Origin: Roseivivax sp. GX 12232 | Lineage (GTDB): Bacteria > Pseudomonadota > Alphaproteobacteria > Rhodobacterales > Rhodobacteraceae | Direction: 5' to 3' | Length of the DNA: 64,000 nt | NCBI RefSeq assembly: GCF_021272185.1 | Contig: NZ_JAJSEC010000006.1 | Coordinates: 1-64,000, forward strand | Notes under the pieces: model-generated | Databases searched by the model: none | What the model saw: only the letters and a program-made list of their open reading frames with translations | What the model was told of the DNA's origin: nothing | Position numbers and translations under genes: made by a program | Part shown: in pieces, positions 1 to 61,147 of the stretch | Layout of the letters: every line of letters starts with the position of its first letter | How positions within the stretch are numbered: position 1 is the stretch's first letter

Positions 1-122
1 CGGCCCCTTGGGCCGGCGCTCCTTGGGGCAGTGCGCCTAGCTCACAATGAGCCCTGACTTTGCTGCCATAAAGCGCGCCGCTCGAAGGTCGGCAGCGCCG
101 GCCCCCGGTCCGGCGCGCGCCC
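1..122 (-). repeat. 165-bp interspersed structured repeat, copy A (cut by window edge)
   Basis: On the minus strand this matches copies B-E elsewhere in the window. It has the GC-rich 5' arm (94-122), the conserved core around GCGCTTTAT, and the start of the 3' arm, whose AGCGCC lies exactly 102 bases from the 5' end as in copies B and C. The last 43 bases lie outside the window. It sits upstream of the alkB-like gene. Confidence 0.85.
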
Positions 123-14946: not shown

Positions 14947-15019
14947 GCGTTCAGACAGATGGGCGGCTGCGTCTCGCTCGGTGATGCTGCTCGCGCCTCC
15001 TCAGAGAGGCTTCGCTTCT

Positions 15020-15210
15020 CCACTCTGCTCCTCCAACCCTCCTCTCAAATATCTTCTCATCGCTTCTCGCCTCCTGCCGTCTCCTCTCGTCCCCCTTGCT
15101 CTCCTCCCCTCTCGTGTCGTCTCCTTTGCTCCCCTCTCCTGCCTTCATTTCCCCGTCTTCCCCTAACTTTCTCTTCCCTCCCCTACCTTTCCCTCCTGCC
15201 CTCCGCTCGC
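15020..15210 (+). repeat. Low-complexity polypyrimidine tract
   Basis: About 190 bases are strongly C/T-biased on the plus strand, built of irregular TCTCC, CTTCC and CCCTC units. There is no fixed period, so it is not a simple microsatellite. It differs from all surrounding sequence, lies directly before repeat copy B and encodes nothing recognisable. Confidence 0.75.
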
Positions 15211-15278
15211 CGCAGCGCCGCCCTCCGCGTGACCTGACACAAGGCAAGTCCCCGCCCCCTCTCAACCAGCTCAACAAA

Positions 15279-15443
15279 GGGCGCGCGCCGGACCGGGGGC
15301 CGGCGCTTATGACCTCTGAGCAGGGCGCTTTATCCCAGCAAGGTCAGGACTAGGAGATAGCTATGCGCGCCACTCCAAGGAGCGCCGGCCCATCGGGCCG
15401 GTCCGGCGCGCGCCCGGCATCTTCGATGCTATTCGGGCGCAAG
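15279..15443 (+). repeat. 165-bp interspersed structured repeat, copy B
   Basis: Complete copy. The 5' arm (15279-15307) is complementary to the 3' arm (15381-15415) over 29 bases with a six-base bulge. The core has GCGCTTTAT and TGACCT...AGGTCA. A 3' hairpin at 15410-15440 reads GCGCCCG-GCATC-TTC-GATGC-TATT-CGGGCGC. Here the inner stem has T-A where copies C, D and E have C-G, a compensatory change. Confidence 0.88.
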
Positions 15444-15586: not shown

Positions 15587-15751
15587 GGGCGCGCGCCGGG
15601 CCGGGGGCCGGCGCTGCTGACCTCTGGGCGAGGCACTTTATGGCAGCAAGGTCAGAGCTAGGGGCATGCTATGCACGCCATCCAAAGGAGCGCCGGCCCA
15701 AGGGGCCGGTCCGGCGCGCGCCCGGCACCTTCGGTGCTGTTCGGGCGCAAG
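15587..15751 (+). repeat. 165-bp interspersed structured repeat, copy C
   Basis: Complete copy, same length as B, with its 5' arm at 15587-15615 and 3' arm at 15689-15723. It shares CACCCCTCGC(A/G)ACAGA just before the 5' arm with copy D. Similarity to D also continues loosely for about 35 bases past the 3' end (an ACGTGG...GGTGG pattern). Confidence 0.88.
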
Positions 15752-16065: not shown

Positions 16066-16214
16066 TCCCATGGGCTTGGCCCGGGATCGCCCTCCGTCAG
16101 CGCGTTGCGCCCACGGGGGCGCTACTGGTTTGAGCCTGCGCCATTTGCGTGGCGCGCCCGCAGTCCCCACCTCGGGGGCAGTGGACAACGGAAGATGAAG
16201 GGGGCGGAAGCGCC

Positions 16215-17729
16215 ATGTTCGAGAACCTGTCAGATCGCCTGGGCGGCGTCTTCGACCGGCTGACCAAGCAGGGCGCCCTCAGCGAGGAGGACGTCAGGAC
16301 CGCGCTGCGCGAGGTCCGCGTGGCCCTGCTCGAGGCCGACGTCTCGCTGCCGGTGGCGCGCGCCTTCATCAAGTCGGTCGAGAAGAAGGCCACCGGCGCC
16401 GCGGTCACCAAGTCGGTGACGCCGGGCCAGCAGGTGGTGAAGATCGTCCACGACGAGCTGATCACCGTGCTCGCCGGCGAAGAGGGCGCCGACCCCGGCG
16501 ACCTGCGCATCTCCAACCCGCCCGCGCCGATCCTGATGGTCGGCCTGCAGGGCGGCGGCAAGACCACCTCCACCGCCAAGCTCGCCAAGCGCCTGACCGA
16601 GCGCGACCGCAAGAAGGTGCTCATGGCCTCGCTCGACGTGCAGCGTCCGGCGGCGATGGAGCAGCTCGAGATCCTCGGCAAGCAGATCGGCGTCGACACC
16701 CTGCCGATCGTCAAGGGCGAGGACCCGGTCGCCATCGCCAAGCGCGCCAAGACCCAGGCGAGCCTCGGCGGTTACGACGTCTACATGCTCGACACCGCGG
16801 GCCGGCTCTCGATCGACGAGGAGCTGATGACCCAGGTCGAGGCGGTGCGCGACGTCGCCAACCCGCGCGAGACGCTCCTGGTGGTCGACGGCCTTACCGG
16901 CCAGGACGCGGTGCATACCGCCGAGAACTTCGACCTGCGCATCGGCATCTCCGGCGTCGTGCTGACCCGGATGGACGGCGACGGCCGCGGCGGCGCGGCG
17001 CTCTCGATGCGCCAGGTCACCGGCAAGCCGATCAAGTTCGTCGGCCTCGGCGAGAAGATGGACGCGCTCGAGACCTTCGAACCCGAGCGCGTCGCCGGCC
17101 GCATCCTCGGCATGGGCGACATCGTGGCGCTCGTGGAGAAGGCGCAGCAGACGCTCGAGGCCGAACAGGCCGAGCGCATGATGAAGCGCTTCCAGAAGGG
17201 TCAGTTCAACATGAACGACCTGAAGATGCAGCTCGACCAGATGCTGAAGATGGGCGGCATGGAAAGCATGATGTCCATGATGCCCGGCATGGGGAAGATG
17301 GCCAAGCAGATGGAAGGCGCGGGCATGGACGATTCGGTCCTGCGCCAGCAGATCGCGCTGATCAACTCCATGACCAAGAAGGAGCGCGCCAACCCCCAGC
17401 TTCTGCAGGCCAGCCGCAAGAAGCGCATCGCCAAGGGCTCGGGCCTCGAGGTCTCGGAGCTGAACAAGCTTCTGAAGATGCAGCGGCAGATGGCCGACAT
17501 GATGAAGAAGATGGGCAAGATGAGCAAAGGCGGCGCGCTGAAGCAGGCCATGCGCGGCATGTTCGGCAAGGGCGGCATGCCCCCGGGCATGGATCCCTCG
17601 CAGATGGACCCCAAGCAGCTCGAGGCCGCGGCCAAGGCCATGGGCGGCAAGGGCGGGATGCCCGGCGGCATGGGCGGCATGGGCGGCGGCCTTCCCGGCG
17701 GTCTTTCGGGCTTCGGCAAGAAGAAGTGA
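16215..17729 (+). CDS. ffh: Signal recognition particle protein Ffh
   Basis: A 504-residue GTPase that binds 4.5S RNA and signal sequences and brings ribosomes to FtsY at the membrane. The N domain spans 1-95. The GTPase has G1 GLQGGGKTTS (110-119), DTAGR (193-197) and TRMDGDGRGG (251-260). The M domain from about 310 is rich in methionine and ends in a Gly/Met-rich tail. The ATG at 16215 follows GGGGCGGAAGCGCC; the longer frame from 16149 is not family-like. It heads the ribosome-maturation cluster. Confidence 0.97.
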   Translation: MFENLSDRLGGVFDRLTKQGALSEEDVRTALREVRVALLEADVSLPVARAFIKSVEKKATGAAVTKSVTPGQQVVKIVHDELITVLAGEEGADPGDLRISNPPAPILMVGLQGGGKTTSTAKLAKRLTERDRKKVLMASLDVQRPAAMEQLEILGKQIGVDTLPIVKGEDPVAIAKRAKTQASLGGYDVYMLDTAGRLSIDEELMTQVEAVRDVANPRETLLVVDGLTGQDAVHTAENFDLRIGISGVVLTRMDGDGRGGAALSMRQVTGKPIKFVGLGEKMDALETFEPERVAGRILGMGDIVALVEKAQQTLEAEQAERMMKRFQKGQFNMNDLKMQLDQMLKMGGMESMMSMMPGMGKMAKQMEGAGMDDSVLRQQIALINSMTKKERANPQLLQASRKKRIAKGSGLEVSELNKLLKMQRQMADMMKKMGKMSKGGALKQAMRGMFGKGGMPPGMDPSQMDPKQLEAAAKAMGGKGGMPGGMGGMGGGLPGGLSGFGKKK

Positions 17730-21455: not shown

Positions 21456-21941
21456 GGAGGGGGCTTGGGGTCGTTAGACGTTGGGCCTTCTGCTCCCCAA
21501 GAAGTCATCAACAAACGCCCGACCTCCTCAGCAGCCAGTCGAGCTTGTCTCCGCAGACCGCCTGCGCCTCCCCCCCCTGTCACAGCCCCAGGCAAACCGA
21601 CCCTTAGCCACCCCTCGCAACAGAGGGCACGCGCCGGACCGGGGGCCGGCGCTGCTGACATCCGAACGAAGCGCTTTATCCCCGCAAGGTCAGGGCTAGC
21701 GGCGATCTATGCGCTTCGCCCACAAGAGCGCCGGCCCATCGGGCCGGTCCGGCGCGCGCCCGGCACCTTCGGTGCTATTCGGGCGCAAGAAGCTGGGGCG
21801 TAACGTGGCGGGTGGTGCGTGATGGCCTTGGCCGAGGCCACCTTGCCTATCACCCCAACAGCCCACACCCATCCCCCCCTTTGCCAACCCGCCGCCAAGC
21901 CTCTAAAGGACGCGGCGGATACCTCACTTCGGGACAGGCTC
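21456..21941 (+). other. Intergenic region between rimM and trmD
   Basis: These 486 bases separate two genes that usually lie close together. They hold repeat copy D (21625-21789) and the presumed trmD leader. Frames crossing it (such as the upstream extension of trmD) are products of the repeat and not family-like. Confidence 0.7.
21625..21789 (+). repeat. 165-bp interspersed structured repeat, copy D
   Basis: Complete copy with both arms, the GCGCTTTAT core and the 3' hairpin (GCACC-TTC-GGTGC inside GCGCCCG...CGGGCGC). It is preceded by CACCCCTCGCAACAGA as in copy C. It lies inside the ribosomal maturation operon, on the coding strand between rimM and trmD, so it should be transcribed with them. 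Confidence 0.88.
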
Positions 21942-56067: not shown

Positions 56068-56592
56068 TCAATGCAACCGCCGGGCGCGGGGCGCGGGCCC
56101 GTCCCGGCGCCACAGCGGGGCGATCCCGCCGCCGCCGGCCTCGAGCGCGCGCAACATGGCGCCCGTGTCGAAGCCCGGCAGCCCCGCGAAGGCATCGAAG
56201 AGCCGGTCGGCGCCGCTGGCCGTCACCGGAATGTGAAGCGCGGGCCCGCCCTCGTGGTCGATGCGCCAGTGCCGGGGATGCGAGGCCCGGTCGAGCGAGA
56301 CCGCCGTCACCTCGTCGAGCGCCGCGGTGCCGCCAGAGAGCGGGCCGAAGTAGCTGAGCTGCCGCTCGGTGACCTCGACGATGCCGGGCCCGTCGCCCGC
56401 GCCGCGGAACCGTCCGCGCTGCACCCCGAGCCCGAGAAGCAGGAGGCCCAGCGCCACCAGCGCCCAGCCGAAGGCCGCCGCGAGCCAGCCAAGCGCGCCG
56501 AGCGCCACGAGAAGCCCCAGGGCCAGCACCGCGCCCCCCGCCAGCGCCTCGCGCCAGCGCATCAGGGCCGCGTGCGCCTCGGGCCGGATCAC
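56068..56592 (-). CDS. Two-helix membrane protein downstream of rsmE, unrecognised
   Basis: A 174-residue protein with two hydrophobic segments (about 18-37 and 40-57), then a soluble domain with VTERQLSYFGPLSGG and AVSLDRASHPRHWRIDHEGG that looks like a small beta-rich domain. GTG start at 56592 overlaps the rsmE stop (GTGA). Widespread in relatives as a hypothetical protein, as far as I recall. Function unknown. Confidence 0.8.
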   Translation of the reverse strand: MIRPEAHAALMRWREALAGGAVLALGLLVALGALGWLAAAFGWALVALGLLLLGLGVQRGRFRGAGDGPGIVEVTERQLSYFGPLSGGTAALDEVTAVSLDRASHPRHWRIDHEGGPALHIPVTASGADRLFDAFAGLPGFDTGAMLRALEAGGGGIAPLWRRDGPAPRARRLH

Positions 56593-57326
56593 GTCCAGTC
56601 TCCGAGCCGCATCTGCCAGAGCGTCAGCGCCGCCACTGCGGCGGTATCGGCGCGCAGGATGCGCGGGCCGAGCCCCGCCACGGCGGCGAAATCGAGCCCG
56701 TGCAGCCGGGCGCGTTCACCCTCCGAGAAGCCGCCCTCGGGGCCAATCAGCACCGCCCAGGGCGCGCCGCGCCCCTCGGCCTCGGCGAAACGGGCGGCGC
56801 GTGTCTCGGGGCCATGGGCCTCGGCCTCGTCGCAGAACATCAGCCGCCGGTCCCCGGGCCAGTCGCGCAGGAGCTGCGAGAGCTTGGCCAGCGGCGCCAC
56901 CTCGGGCACGAAACAGGCGCCGCATTGCTCGGCCGCCTCGCGGGCATGGGCCTGCAGCCGGTCCTGGCGGATGCGTTCGGAATTGGTGAACTCGGTCGTG
57001 ACCGGCAGGAGCCGCCGCACCCCCATCTCGACCGCCTTTTCGACGATGAAATCGGTGCGCGCCTTCTTCACCGGCGCGAAGAGCAGCCAGAGGTCGGGCG
57101 GCATCTGCTGGGCCCGGGTCTGCTCCTCGACGACAAGCGTGCCGCCGCGCTTGCCCGCCTCGGCCACGCTGGCGCGCCATTCGCCGTCACGCCCGTTGAA
57201 CAGGTGCAGCACGGCCCCCGGCGCCAGCCGCATCACCCCGAAAAGGTAATGCGCCTGCTCCCGCGCGAGCGCCAGCTGTTGTCCCGCCCCGAGGGGCTCG
57301 TCTACATAGAGCCTGACCTGAGCCAT
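56589..57326 (-). CDS. rsmE: 16S rRNA (uracil1498-N3)-methyltransferase RsmE
   Basis: A 245-residue SPOUT methyltransferase with an N-terminal PUA-like part (HYLFGVMRLAPGAVLHLFNGRDGEW) and SAM-site blocks LLFAPVKK, VLIGPEGGFSEGE and GPRILRADTAAVAAL. It methylates U1498 at the decoding site. Only 11 bases separate its start from that of the divergent ubiA. Confidence 0.96.
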   Translation of the reverse strand: MAQVRLYVDEPLGAGQQLALAREQAHYLFGVMRLAPGAVLHLFNGRDGEWRASVAEAGKRGGTLVVEEQTRAQQMPPDLWLLFAPVKKARTDFIVEKAVEMGVRRLLPVTTEFTNSERIRQDRLQAHAREAAEQCGACFVPEVAPLAKLSQLLRDWPGDRRLMFCDEAEAHGPETRAARFAEAEGRGAPWAVLIGPEGGFSEGERARLHGLDFAAVAGLGPRILRADTAAVAALTLWQMRLGDWT

Positions 57327-60590: not shown

Positions 60591-61147
60591 GGGGGGCTGT
60601 TGGGAGCTAATCCGACGGGATCGTCCGCTGCCTGAATGGCTGCCGCTGTTGGAGAGGTCGGTTGTCGCGCGTGACTGGATGAGCCCCGGCCTGAAGCCCG
60701 GCCCCAGGATCACAACCGTCGGCCTCTGCTCCTGAAGACCCGACGACACCCCCAAAGCTGCTCCATCATACCCCCTCACAACCTTACCCCCTGCCTGCGC
60801 CCGAATAGCACCGAAGGTGCCGGGCGCGCGCCGGACCGGCCCGATGGGCCGGCGCTCCTTGGGATGGCGCGCTCAGCTCCCCCCCTAGCCCTGACATTGC
60901 GTGGATAAAGCGCCTCGCTCAGAGCGCAGCAGCGCCGCCCCCCGGCCCGCCGCGCGCCCGGCACCTTCACCCCGGCCTGGGGCGCTCCTTGCCGGATCAC
61001 AGGGGGCGCCCGGGTTCACCCAACATCAACCGTCTCCAAATCCCACCGGGCTTGCCCCTCAACGGCGACCCTGAGCCCCAGCCAGACGCCCGCTCTACGG
61101 CCGCCCGGTCCCCCGCGCGCCCGGCACCTTCACCCGAGGGCCACCCC
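60591..61147. other. Intergenic region holding repeat copy E and repeat fragments
   Basis: Beside copy E (60794-60959), two short fragments of the repeat's 3' part lie on the plus strand around 60945-60970 and 61107-61130 (CGCGCGCCCGGCACCTTCA). No gene is seen. Confidence 0.65.
60794..60959 (-). repeat. 165-bp interspersed structured repeat, copy E (166 bp, more diverged)
   Basis: On the minus strand it has the 5' arm (60931-60959, several changes), the GCGCTTTATCC core, an intact 3' arm (AGCGCCGGCCC-ATC-GGGCC) and the 3' hairpin GCACC-TTC-GGTGC. One base longer than B-D. Confidence 0.82.

Follow-up and report, generated by a model that had tools for sequence, protein, structure and literature searches.

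Large extragenic palindromic elements, apparently undescribed so far, in Roseivivax sp. GX 12232 and other Rhodobacteraceae

Bacterial MITEs of the Correia, NEMIS, ERIC and RUP type carry inverted repeats, are intergenic and are comparable in length to the element analysed here. Rho-dependent or bidirectional 3'-end hairpins place a strong stem between convergent genes, and integron attC sites fold as palindromes of single-stranded DNA, oriented with respect to replication. In REPs with a RAYT the stem measures 20-50 nt and carries GTAG at the foot (PMC8266576); their subfamilies have alternative complementary stem residues (PMC3733652, PMC8266576), and G-T pairs are reported to be frequent in REPs (PMC3733652). 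CGTC-tagged REPs are 20-40 bp long with a terminal CGTC, and are reported to predominate in Alphaproteobacteria and to have no dedicated transposase (PMC3733652). The main text of PMC3733652 does not mention Rhodobacter, Roseo- or Ruegeria.

We analysed a window of 64,000 nucleotides from Roseivivax sp. GX 12232 (contig NZ_JAJSEC010000006.1, positions 1 to 64,000), in which an earlier note had pointed out five copies of a structured repeat. Like REPs, BIMEs and REPINs, this repeat is a high-copy extragenic palindrome, often downstream of genes, with proposed mobility as single-stranded DNA, and it shares the alternative complementary stem residues between subfamilies. It differs in its length of 165 bp versus 20-50, its 75-base variable core, its three-strand X arrangement, its rare G-U pairs, its lack of GTAG enrichment and a genome without Y1/RAYT. 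The CGTC REPs are likewise described as palindromic repeats of Alphaproteobacteria with no dedicated transposase, but they are 20-40 bp long, and CGTC is not enriched at the ends of the element (in 137 copies, 6 left ends and 2 right ends, versus 9 and 11 in the far flanks).

Length, terminal inverted repeats that pair as a stem and intergenic location recall MITEs, whereas no target duplication was detected, the tail hairpin is asymmetric and the fold covaries across genera. A strong stem at convergent-gene positions is also found in 3'-end hairpins, but the element reaches hundreds of copies and a C-rich leader is weak or absent outside the home species. With attC sites the element has in common a folded single-strand palindrome and replication-linked orientation; however, it is dispersed over the chromosome, its arms are near-invariant, and no integron cassette arrays were seen in the stretches read.

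The earlier note could name no repeat family for these copies, and this was upheld. Rfam at the gathering threshold returned the ffh sRNA alone in the window and nothing on the element. The single hit of a permissive scan in four relatives, at chance level (MIR7486, E=2.4), reached the edge of one element. The literature search, whose coverage excluded most subscription papers, found no description of the family. Thus, this family of 165-base hairpin-forming elements is apparently undescribed so far.

Anatomy and copy number in the home genome

All five copies were confirmed at the positions in Table 1, and they aligned end to end with a mean column identity of 86%. Copies 2-4 are exactly equal in length, and the complementary arms and the separate 3' hairpin are both real. 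Copy 2 folds at -98.6 kcal/mol, compared with -75.1 +/- 4.4 for shuffled sequences (z=-5.3). The core motifs ascribed to every copy held in part: TGACCT...AGGTCA is exact in copies 2 and 3 only, and the core word reads GCACTTTAT in copy 3. By eye, the outer-stem extension GAAGGTGCC/GGCACCTTC at copy 5 resembles copies of R. sediminis.

Table 1. Positions of the element copies, their parts and the ffh gene in the window
Feature	Positions	Strand	Remarks
Copy 1	1..122	-	3' end cut by window edge; R1 match 92.1 bits
Copy 2	15279..15443	+	complete, 165 bp; first of direct pair; R1 159.9 bits
5' arm, copy 2	15279..15307	+	columns 1-29; strand X5 = first six bases GGGCGC; from profile and pairing
Core, copy 2	15308..15381	+	columns 30-103, variable; contains GCGCTTTAT; between-copy identity 0.75
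3' arm, copy 2	15382..15415	+	columns 104-137; X' = last six bases GCGCCC
Tail hairpin, copy 2	15416..15440	+	GCAYC-TTC-GRTGC, then GGGCGC = X3'' (columns 157-162)
Copy 3	15587..15751	+	complete, 165 bp; second of direct pair, gap ~144 bp
Ffh (SRP54) gene	16215-17729	+	Pfam
Copy 4	21625..21789	+	complete, 165 bp; between rimM and trmD
Copy 5	60794..60959	-	complete, 166 bp; R1 135.1 bits
GAAGGTGCC, adjoining 5' side of copy 5	60960..60968	-	lengthens outer stem vs GGCACCTTC; by eye

Five copies in 64 kb is true for the window but understates the family. Allowing up to 3 mismatches, a 3'-arm pattern with 33 fixed positions is found 227 times in the home genome (4.12 Mb in 38 contigs, 99.7% complete), on the forward strand in 107 cases and on the reverse strand in 120. 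This number counts arms and not full elements; the reversed pattern has 0 matches in the whole genome. Together with a covarying stem (see below), these matches show a family that is neither limited to five copies nor lacking structural support. A first whole-genome search had given 319 candidates, 40 of which were scored. The fetched stretches yielded 142 hits, of which 137 were complete elements and the other 5 partial or cut. The complete copies are 165 bp long in 125 cases, 166 in 7 and 164 in 5, and no two of them are identical.

The element consists of a stem of about 29 + 34 bases around a variable core, which is about 75 bases long and contains the conserved loop word TTTAT, and then the tail hairpin. 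Across 125 copies, columns 104-140 are near-invariant except for columns 115-116, and the tail-hairpin pair 142-148 is C-G or T-A in 122. Core columns 30-103 in the same copies have a mean between-copy identity of 75%, and mutual information between core columns is down to background within ~10 bp, the tail-hairpin pair excepted. Either the core sites are saturated among few allowed states, or short tracts are exchanged between copies. At G000:C1:90722-90907, a full element is followed by a tail-only array, in which the tail-hairpin region alone occurs three times at 73-bp spacing.

Adjacent copies less than 1.5 kb apart are always in direct orientation (29/29 pairs). In 15 of these 29 close pairs the left flanks resemble each other more than in 95% of random pairs, and mean core identity is 0.81 over the close pairs versus 0.76 for random copies. 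Hypermutation of the core was considered: 22 tandem pairs differ mostly by common family variants (74%, versus 78% in random pairs), and the tandem-pair differences prove neither core hypermutation nor exchange. The core as a guide to the flanks was rejected, with a top mutual information of 0.15 on the left and 0.21 on the right against a null of 0.15 (the 99.9th percentile, over thousands of comparisons). The right-side peak of 0.21 comes from columns 164 and 166, at the edge of the element, and left-right flank values reach 0.22.

Base pairing and distribution across the family

Alignment A5 comprises 38 copies. Eight of them come from Roseivivax and 30 from outside the genus, with one in Pararhodobacter and 29 in other genera of the family. 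Of its 1091 stem cells 95.7% are paired, and both sides have changed at 19 of 29 stem pairs, the covarying secondary structure expected of a structured RNA. The covariation score is 0.307 versus 0.077 +/- 0.009 for shuffled alignments, and it is lost when the partner strand is slid. Covarying cells number 115 versus 33 in shuffles, a value reached by 0/500 shuffles. These results support the view that the palindrome has been kept base-paired across genera of the family. The purity of the arms may be due to selection acting on the fold, or else to the correction of quasipalindromes by hairpin templating, which is an established mutational process.

At the foot of the stem there is a triple of short strands, with X5 at the start of the element, X' closing the 3' arm and X3'' past the tail hairpin. 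X5 exactly complements X' in 31/38 rows and the tail repeats the complement of X' in 34/38, with both relations together in 30/38. The X type is CGGGC in 21 rows, CGCGC in 12 and another in 5, and X matches between rows of unlike type amount to 166/852. Since both complements are present and largely preserved, X' is able to pair with X5 or X3''. In R. lentus (G005) and in G008, some copies fit the model over about positions 11-136 only, and the short copies inspected by eye lack X5 and keep the tail. The short subfamily, at loci L286-L302 in these two genomes, is partly tandem, with a ~224-bp period at L297.

Such a fold might suggest a multicopy structured RNA gene or a riboswitch-like RNA that would alternate between X'-X5 and X'-X3'' pairing, and a structured RNA was among the readings offered in the earlier note. 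The strong covariation, the correspondence of X5, X' and X3'' in 30 of the 38 rows, the near-fixed length and the conserved TTTAT would suit it. However, G-U pairs make up ~2% of cells. The consensus fold of an overlapping 38-copy set has 938 Watson-Crick, 17 G-U, 3 A-C and 23 other cells, and the home-genome arms have G-U and A-C in equal number, 24 each. The low G-U share fits DNA at least as well as RNA; the GU:AC ratio across genera, 17:3, slightly favours an RNA that is read on this strand, while that of the home genome is 24:24. Moreover, orientation and distance to genes are not fixed (30 co-directional sites are sense and 21 antisense), and Rfam has no match at threshold. A host RNA or regulator is also unexpected because copy number spans 0 to >200 in one genus. 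Thus the conserved fold stands, and an RNA gene is an unlikely account of it.

Model R1 matches 72 of 149 genomes of the family, the home genome included, with 19 candidates scored per genome. At E <= 0.01 it counts 150 matches in the home genome, where all candidates were scored, and 71, 40, 33, 5, 4, 2, 0 and 0 in the other eight members of the genus, figures that may include second-strand hits of the same palindrome and of which the smallest may be partly chance. Copies are thus found both elsewhere in this genome and in other Rhodobacteraceae, and copy number within Roseivivax ranges from 0 to >200. In a class-wide survey of low sensitivity, which scored 8 candidates per genome and whose negatives are therefore weak, model R2 matched 4/337 genomes including the home genome, all in the same family. 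Plasmids and phages searched for the element gave no match, and an exact 26-base pattern was absent from viral contigs. A plasmid or phage origin was dropped, as neither gave a match.

Gene context and inheritance of sites

The intergenic position proposed from the window holds for all 137 complete copies read in the home genome, which are free of overlap with the predictions of our own gene caller; with the cruder caller used for relatives, an ORF lies over the element at 5/40 loci. Among 132 copies with both neighbours, 48 are convergent, 40 co-directional sense, 27 co-directional antisense and 17 divergent, and by site (n=104) the numbers are 39, 30, 21 and 14. Convergent gaps make up 74/502 of those in the fetched stretches, a background drawn from around elements, and 28% of gaps >=300 bp, against which the elements reach 36%. 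Therefore, the convergent excess of the home genome hinges on the choice of background. In relatives, 21/37 elements are convergent (40 loci, 3 without one neighbour). The median gap is 725 bp with an element and 85 bp without, and thus DNA beyond the element itself has accumulated.

These positions might indicate a bidirectional 3'-end module, whose stem would terminate or protect transcripts from either side and which would have spread because it is useful. In the home genome the 30-60 bp before the stem are C-rich and G-poor on both sides, like Rho loading sites, and the regions 150-300 bp out are G-rich reading inward on both sides, weakly so in relatives. Together with the convergent counts and the identical 5' arms at three same-orientation shared sites (see below), this favours such a module. 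Nevertheless, the hairpin is not trailed by a U run, 14/104 home-genome sites are divergent, 2/9 genus members have no R1 match, and the convergent excess shrinks against the longer gaps. Other genera and species show the C-rich leader weakly or not at all, and a Rho terminator is therefore doubtful as the family-wide mechanism. We regard a 3'-end module as the main rival reading, serious but less likely than the DNA element favoured below.

The flanks of the fetched home-genome copies (+/-300 bp) have a reverse-complement-symmetric GC skew, C-rich just before and G-rich just after the element and reversed farther out, and this skew is found in all four gene contexts.

The elements that the window carries before ffh and between rimM and trmD were missing from relatives. 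Eight relatives in the genus have no R1 match in their 20-kb ffh stretches, and 1/80 named ffh loci holds an element. By eye, the gap before ffh is ~1.2 kb here versus ~60-190 bp in three relatives with the same left gene, and the rimM-trmD spacing is 10 bases in G001, a Roseivivax genome with zero R1 matches, and ~490 here. An ffh sRNA motif (RF01793, 66 bits) lies at 16076-16127 (+), directly upstream of the Ffh gene. The enlarged gap upstream of ffh also contains a pyrimidine-rich low-complexity stretch (15000-15230), absent from the gaps of four relatives. Two further observations concern annotation. The record at locus L216 (JAFKDC010000001.1) is titled Enemella evansiae, an actinobacterial name, and encodes an Ffh 86% identical to that of the window; it is probably a mislabelled assembly. 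A 95-base tRNA-Glu prediction at 57182-57276 (-), inside a predicted gene (56589-57326), is probably a false positive.

Element sites are partly lineage-specific and partly shared, and shared sites carry the same or a different subfamily. For R. lentus and G008, 15 loci of the former were examined against 15 fetched in the latter, and 8 of the R. lentus loci share their site with an element of G008. At three same-orientation shared sites (L102/L109, L283/L196 and L285/L290) the 5' arms are identical, the 3' arm and tail are 82-98% alike, the cores 82-90% and the flanks 52-87%; at one of these three, a flank (87%) has diverged less than the core (82%). At two other same-orientation sites, L287/L298 and L289/L302, the elements are just 66% and 68% alike, and therefore a shared site is not always one inherited element. 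At one shared site (L297/L294), one species has at least two copies in tandem where the other has a single copy. Two shared sites hold opposite orientations. At L195/L202 the arms are only 71-74% alike, which points to a probable independent occupation instead of in-situ inversion. At L299/L286 in-situ inversion is possible, judging by arms that are 97-100% identical beside a core at 68% and flanks at ~50%. Given identical arms at some shared sites and divergence at others, some elements were inherited and some shared sites re-occupied or replaced.

Orientation and mode of spread

The octamer GGGNAGGG, an FtsK-orienting motif of E. coli, is sharply polarised by replichore in Roseivivax and marks replication direction more clearly than GC skew in G008:C1 and the home-genome contigs. 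In twenty 12-kb samples of G008, it occurs 32 times on the plus and 2 times on the minus strand at 0-1.8 Mb, and 1 and 25 times, respectively, at 1.95-3.7 Mb. Elements of the home genome oppose it at 67 of 101 usable sites (66%, p=0.0013), 7 of 108 sites being excluded for a missing marker, in what was the third polarity test tried, after GC skew and contig heterogeneity. In a larger tally, summed by hand with a binomial test, 95/141 sites are opposed; it omits three marker-less contigs and includes a few copies of unchecked completeness. In G008, 15/25 elements are opposed, which is not significant. GC skew gave a weak, window-dependent polarity (p=0.12, 0.04 and 0.008), heterogeneity between contigs gave p=0.0012, and the unevenness of gene strand between contigs was not significant (p=0.08).

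Hundreds of extragenic palindromes with a replication-biased orientation, as expected for single-stranded DNA transposition, are what a classical REP/REPIN mobilised by a RAYT (Y1 HUH) transposase would produce, and the repeat is indeed high-copy, extragenic and palindromic. A RAYT-dependent palindrome, one of the earlier suggestions, nevertheless found no backing. Y1_Tnp is absent from the 99.7% complete home genome. The element is in 9/15 family genomes with Y1 and 63/134 without (p=0.42), and 63 of the 72 element-bearing genomes lack Y1_Tnp, figures for which two 149-genome samples, one for the element and one for Y1, were treated as the same set. In addition, GTAG stands at 1 left and 3 right ends of 137 copies, equal to the far flanks, and the element is far larger than a REP. 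Mobilisation by a RAYT is thus highly improbable.

A MITE, that is, a deletion product of a TIR transposon that would be moved by the DDE transposase of that transposon, is a very unlikely source. The MITE-like description was right about a non-autonomous, variably amplified element, and inverted-repeat ends, intergenic sites and copy numbers very unlike between species agree with it. The ends, however, carry no direct-repeat signal: among 124 home-genome copies no target duplication was found, the longest flank match being 4.68 versus 4.69 in a null of re-paired flanks, while long inverted flank matches (9+ bases) are slightly in excess (5.6% vs 3.0%). The element also extends ~25 bp past one inverted repeat, asymmetrically and with its own hairpin, covariation across genera implies retention of the fold, and the neighbour proteins beside 40 copies show four pairwise similarities and no recurring family. 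A simple dead MITE is unexpected because the arms are near-invariant, the length is near-fixed and compensatory pairs cross genera.

We therefore favour a non-autonomous hairpin DNA element, because its features resemble REP/BIME while the home genome lacks Y1 and the occurrence of Y1 does not follow that of the family. We give a probability of about 0.5 to the reading that these are large extragenic palindromic DNA elements, Rhodobacteraceae-wide and REP/BIME-like, spread via folded single-stranded DNA by a putative factor. On one strand of the replication fork the stem would fold into a single-stranded hairpin, which a putative host or mobile enzyme would copy or insert. Insertions would persist in intergenic gaps, convergent ones above all. 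The arms would then be held perfect by selection or hairpin-templated correction, and meanwhile the loop-like core would drift, perhaps with exchange between copies. Several observations count against this DNA element: occupied gaps grew by >165 bp with no exact empty site seen, elements at two same-orientation shared sites are only 66-68% alike, the GU:AC ratio across genera leans slightly to RNA, and orientation is biased modestly, at 66%, without reaching significance in G008. The conserved arms at other shared sites and the convergent preference also fit a host function, and the DNA-element and 3'-end readings may both hold. It is rather unlikely, though conceivable, that the elements form a new class of replication-oriented bistable hairpins with no HUH/RAYT, which would be copied from folded single-stranded DNA at the fork, with arms continually repaired by hairpin templating and the core acting as a freely recombining cassette common to the hundreds of copies in one genome.

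Extragenic palindromes are usually ascribed to RAYT transposases, and the large family described here does not track RAYT. In a major bacterial family that is largely marine, about half of the genomes sampled carry the element. Its range of 0 to >200 copies in one genus is a natural series for studying how palindromes spread and are retained, and the contrast of near-invariant arms with cores near linkage equilibrium could be used to tell selection, templated correction and gene conversion apart.
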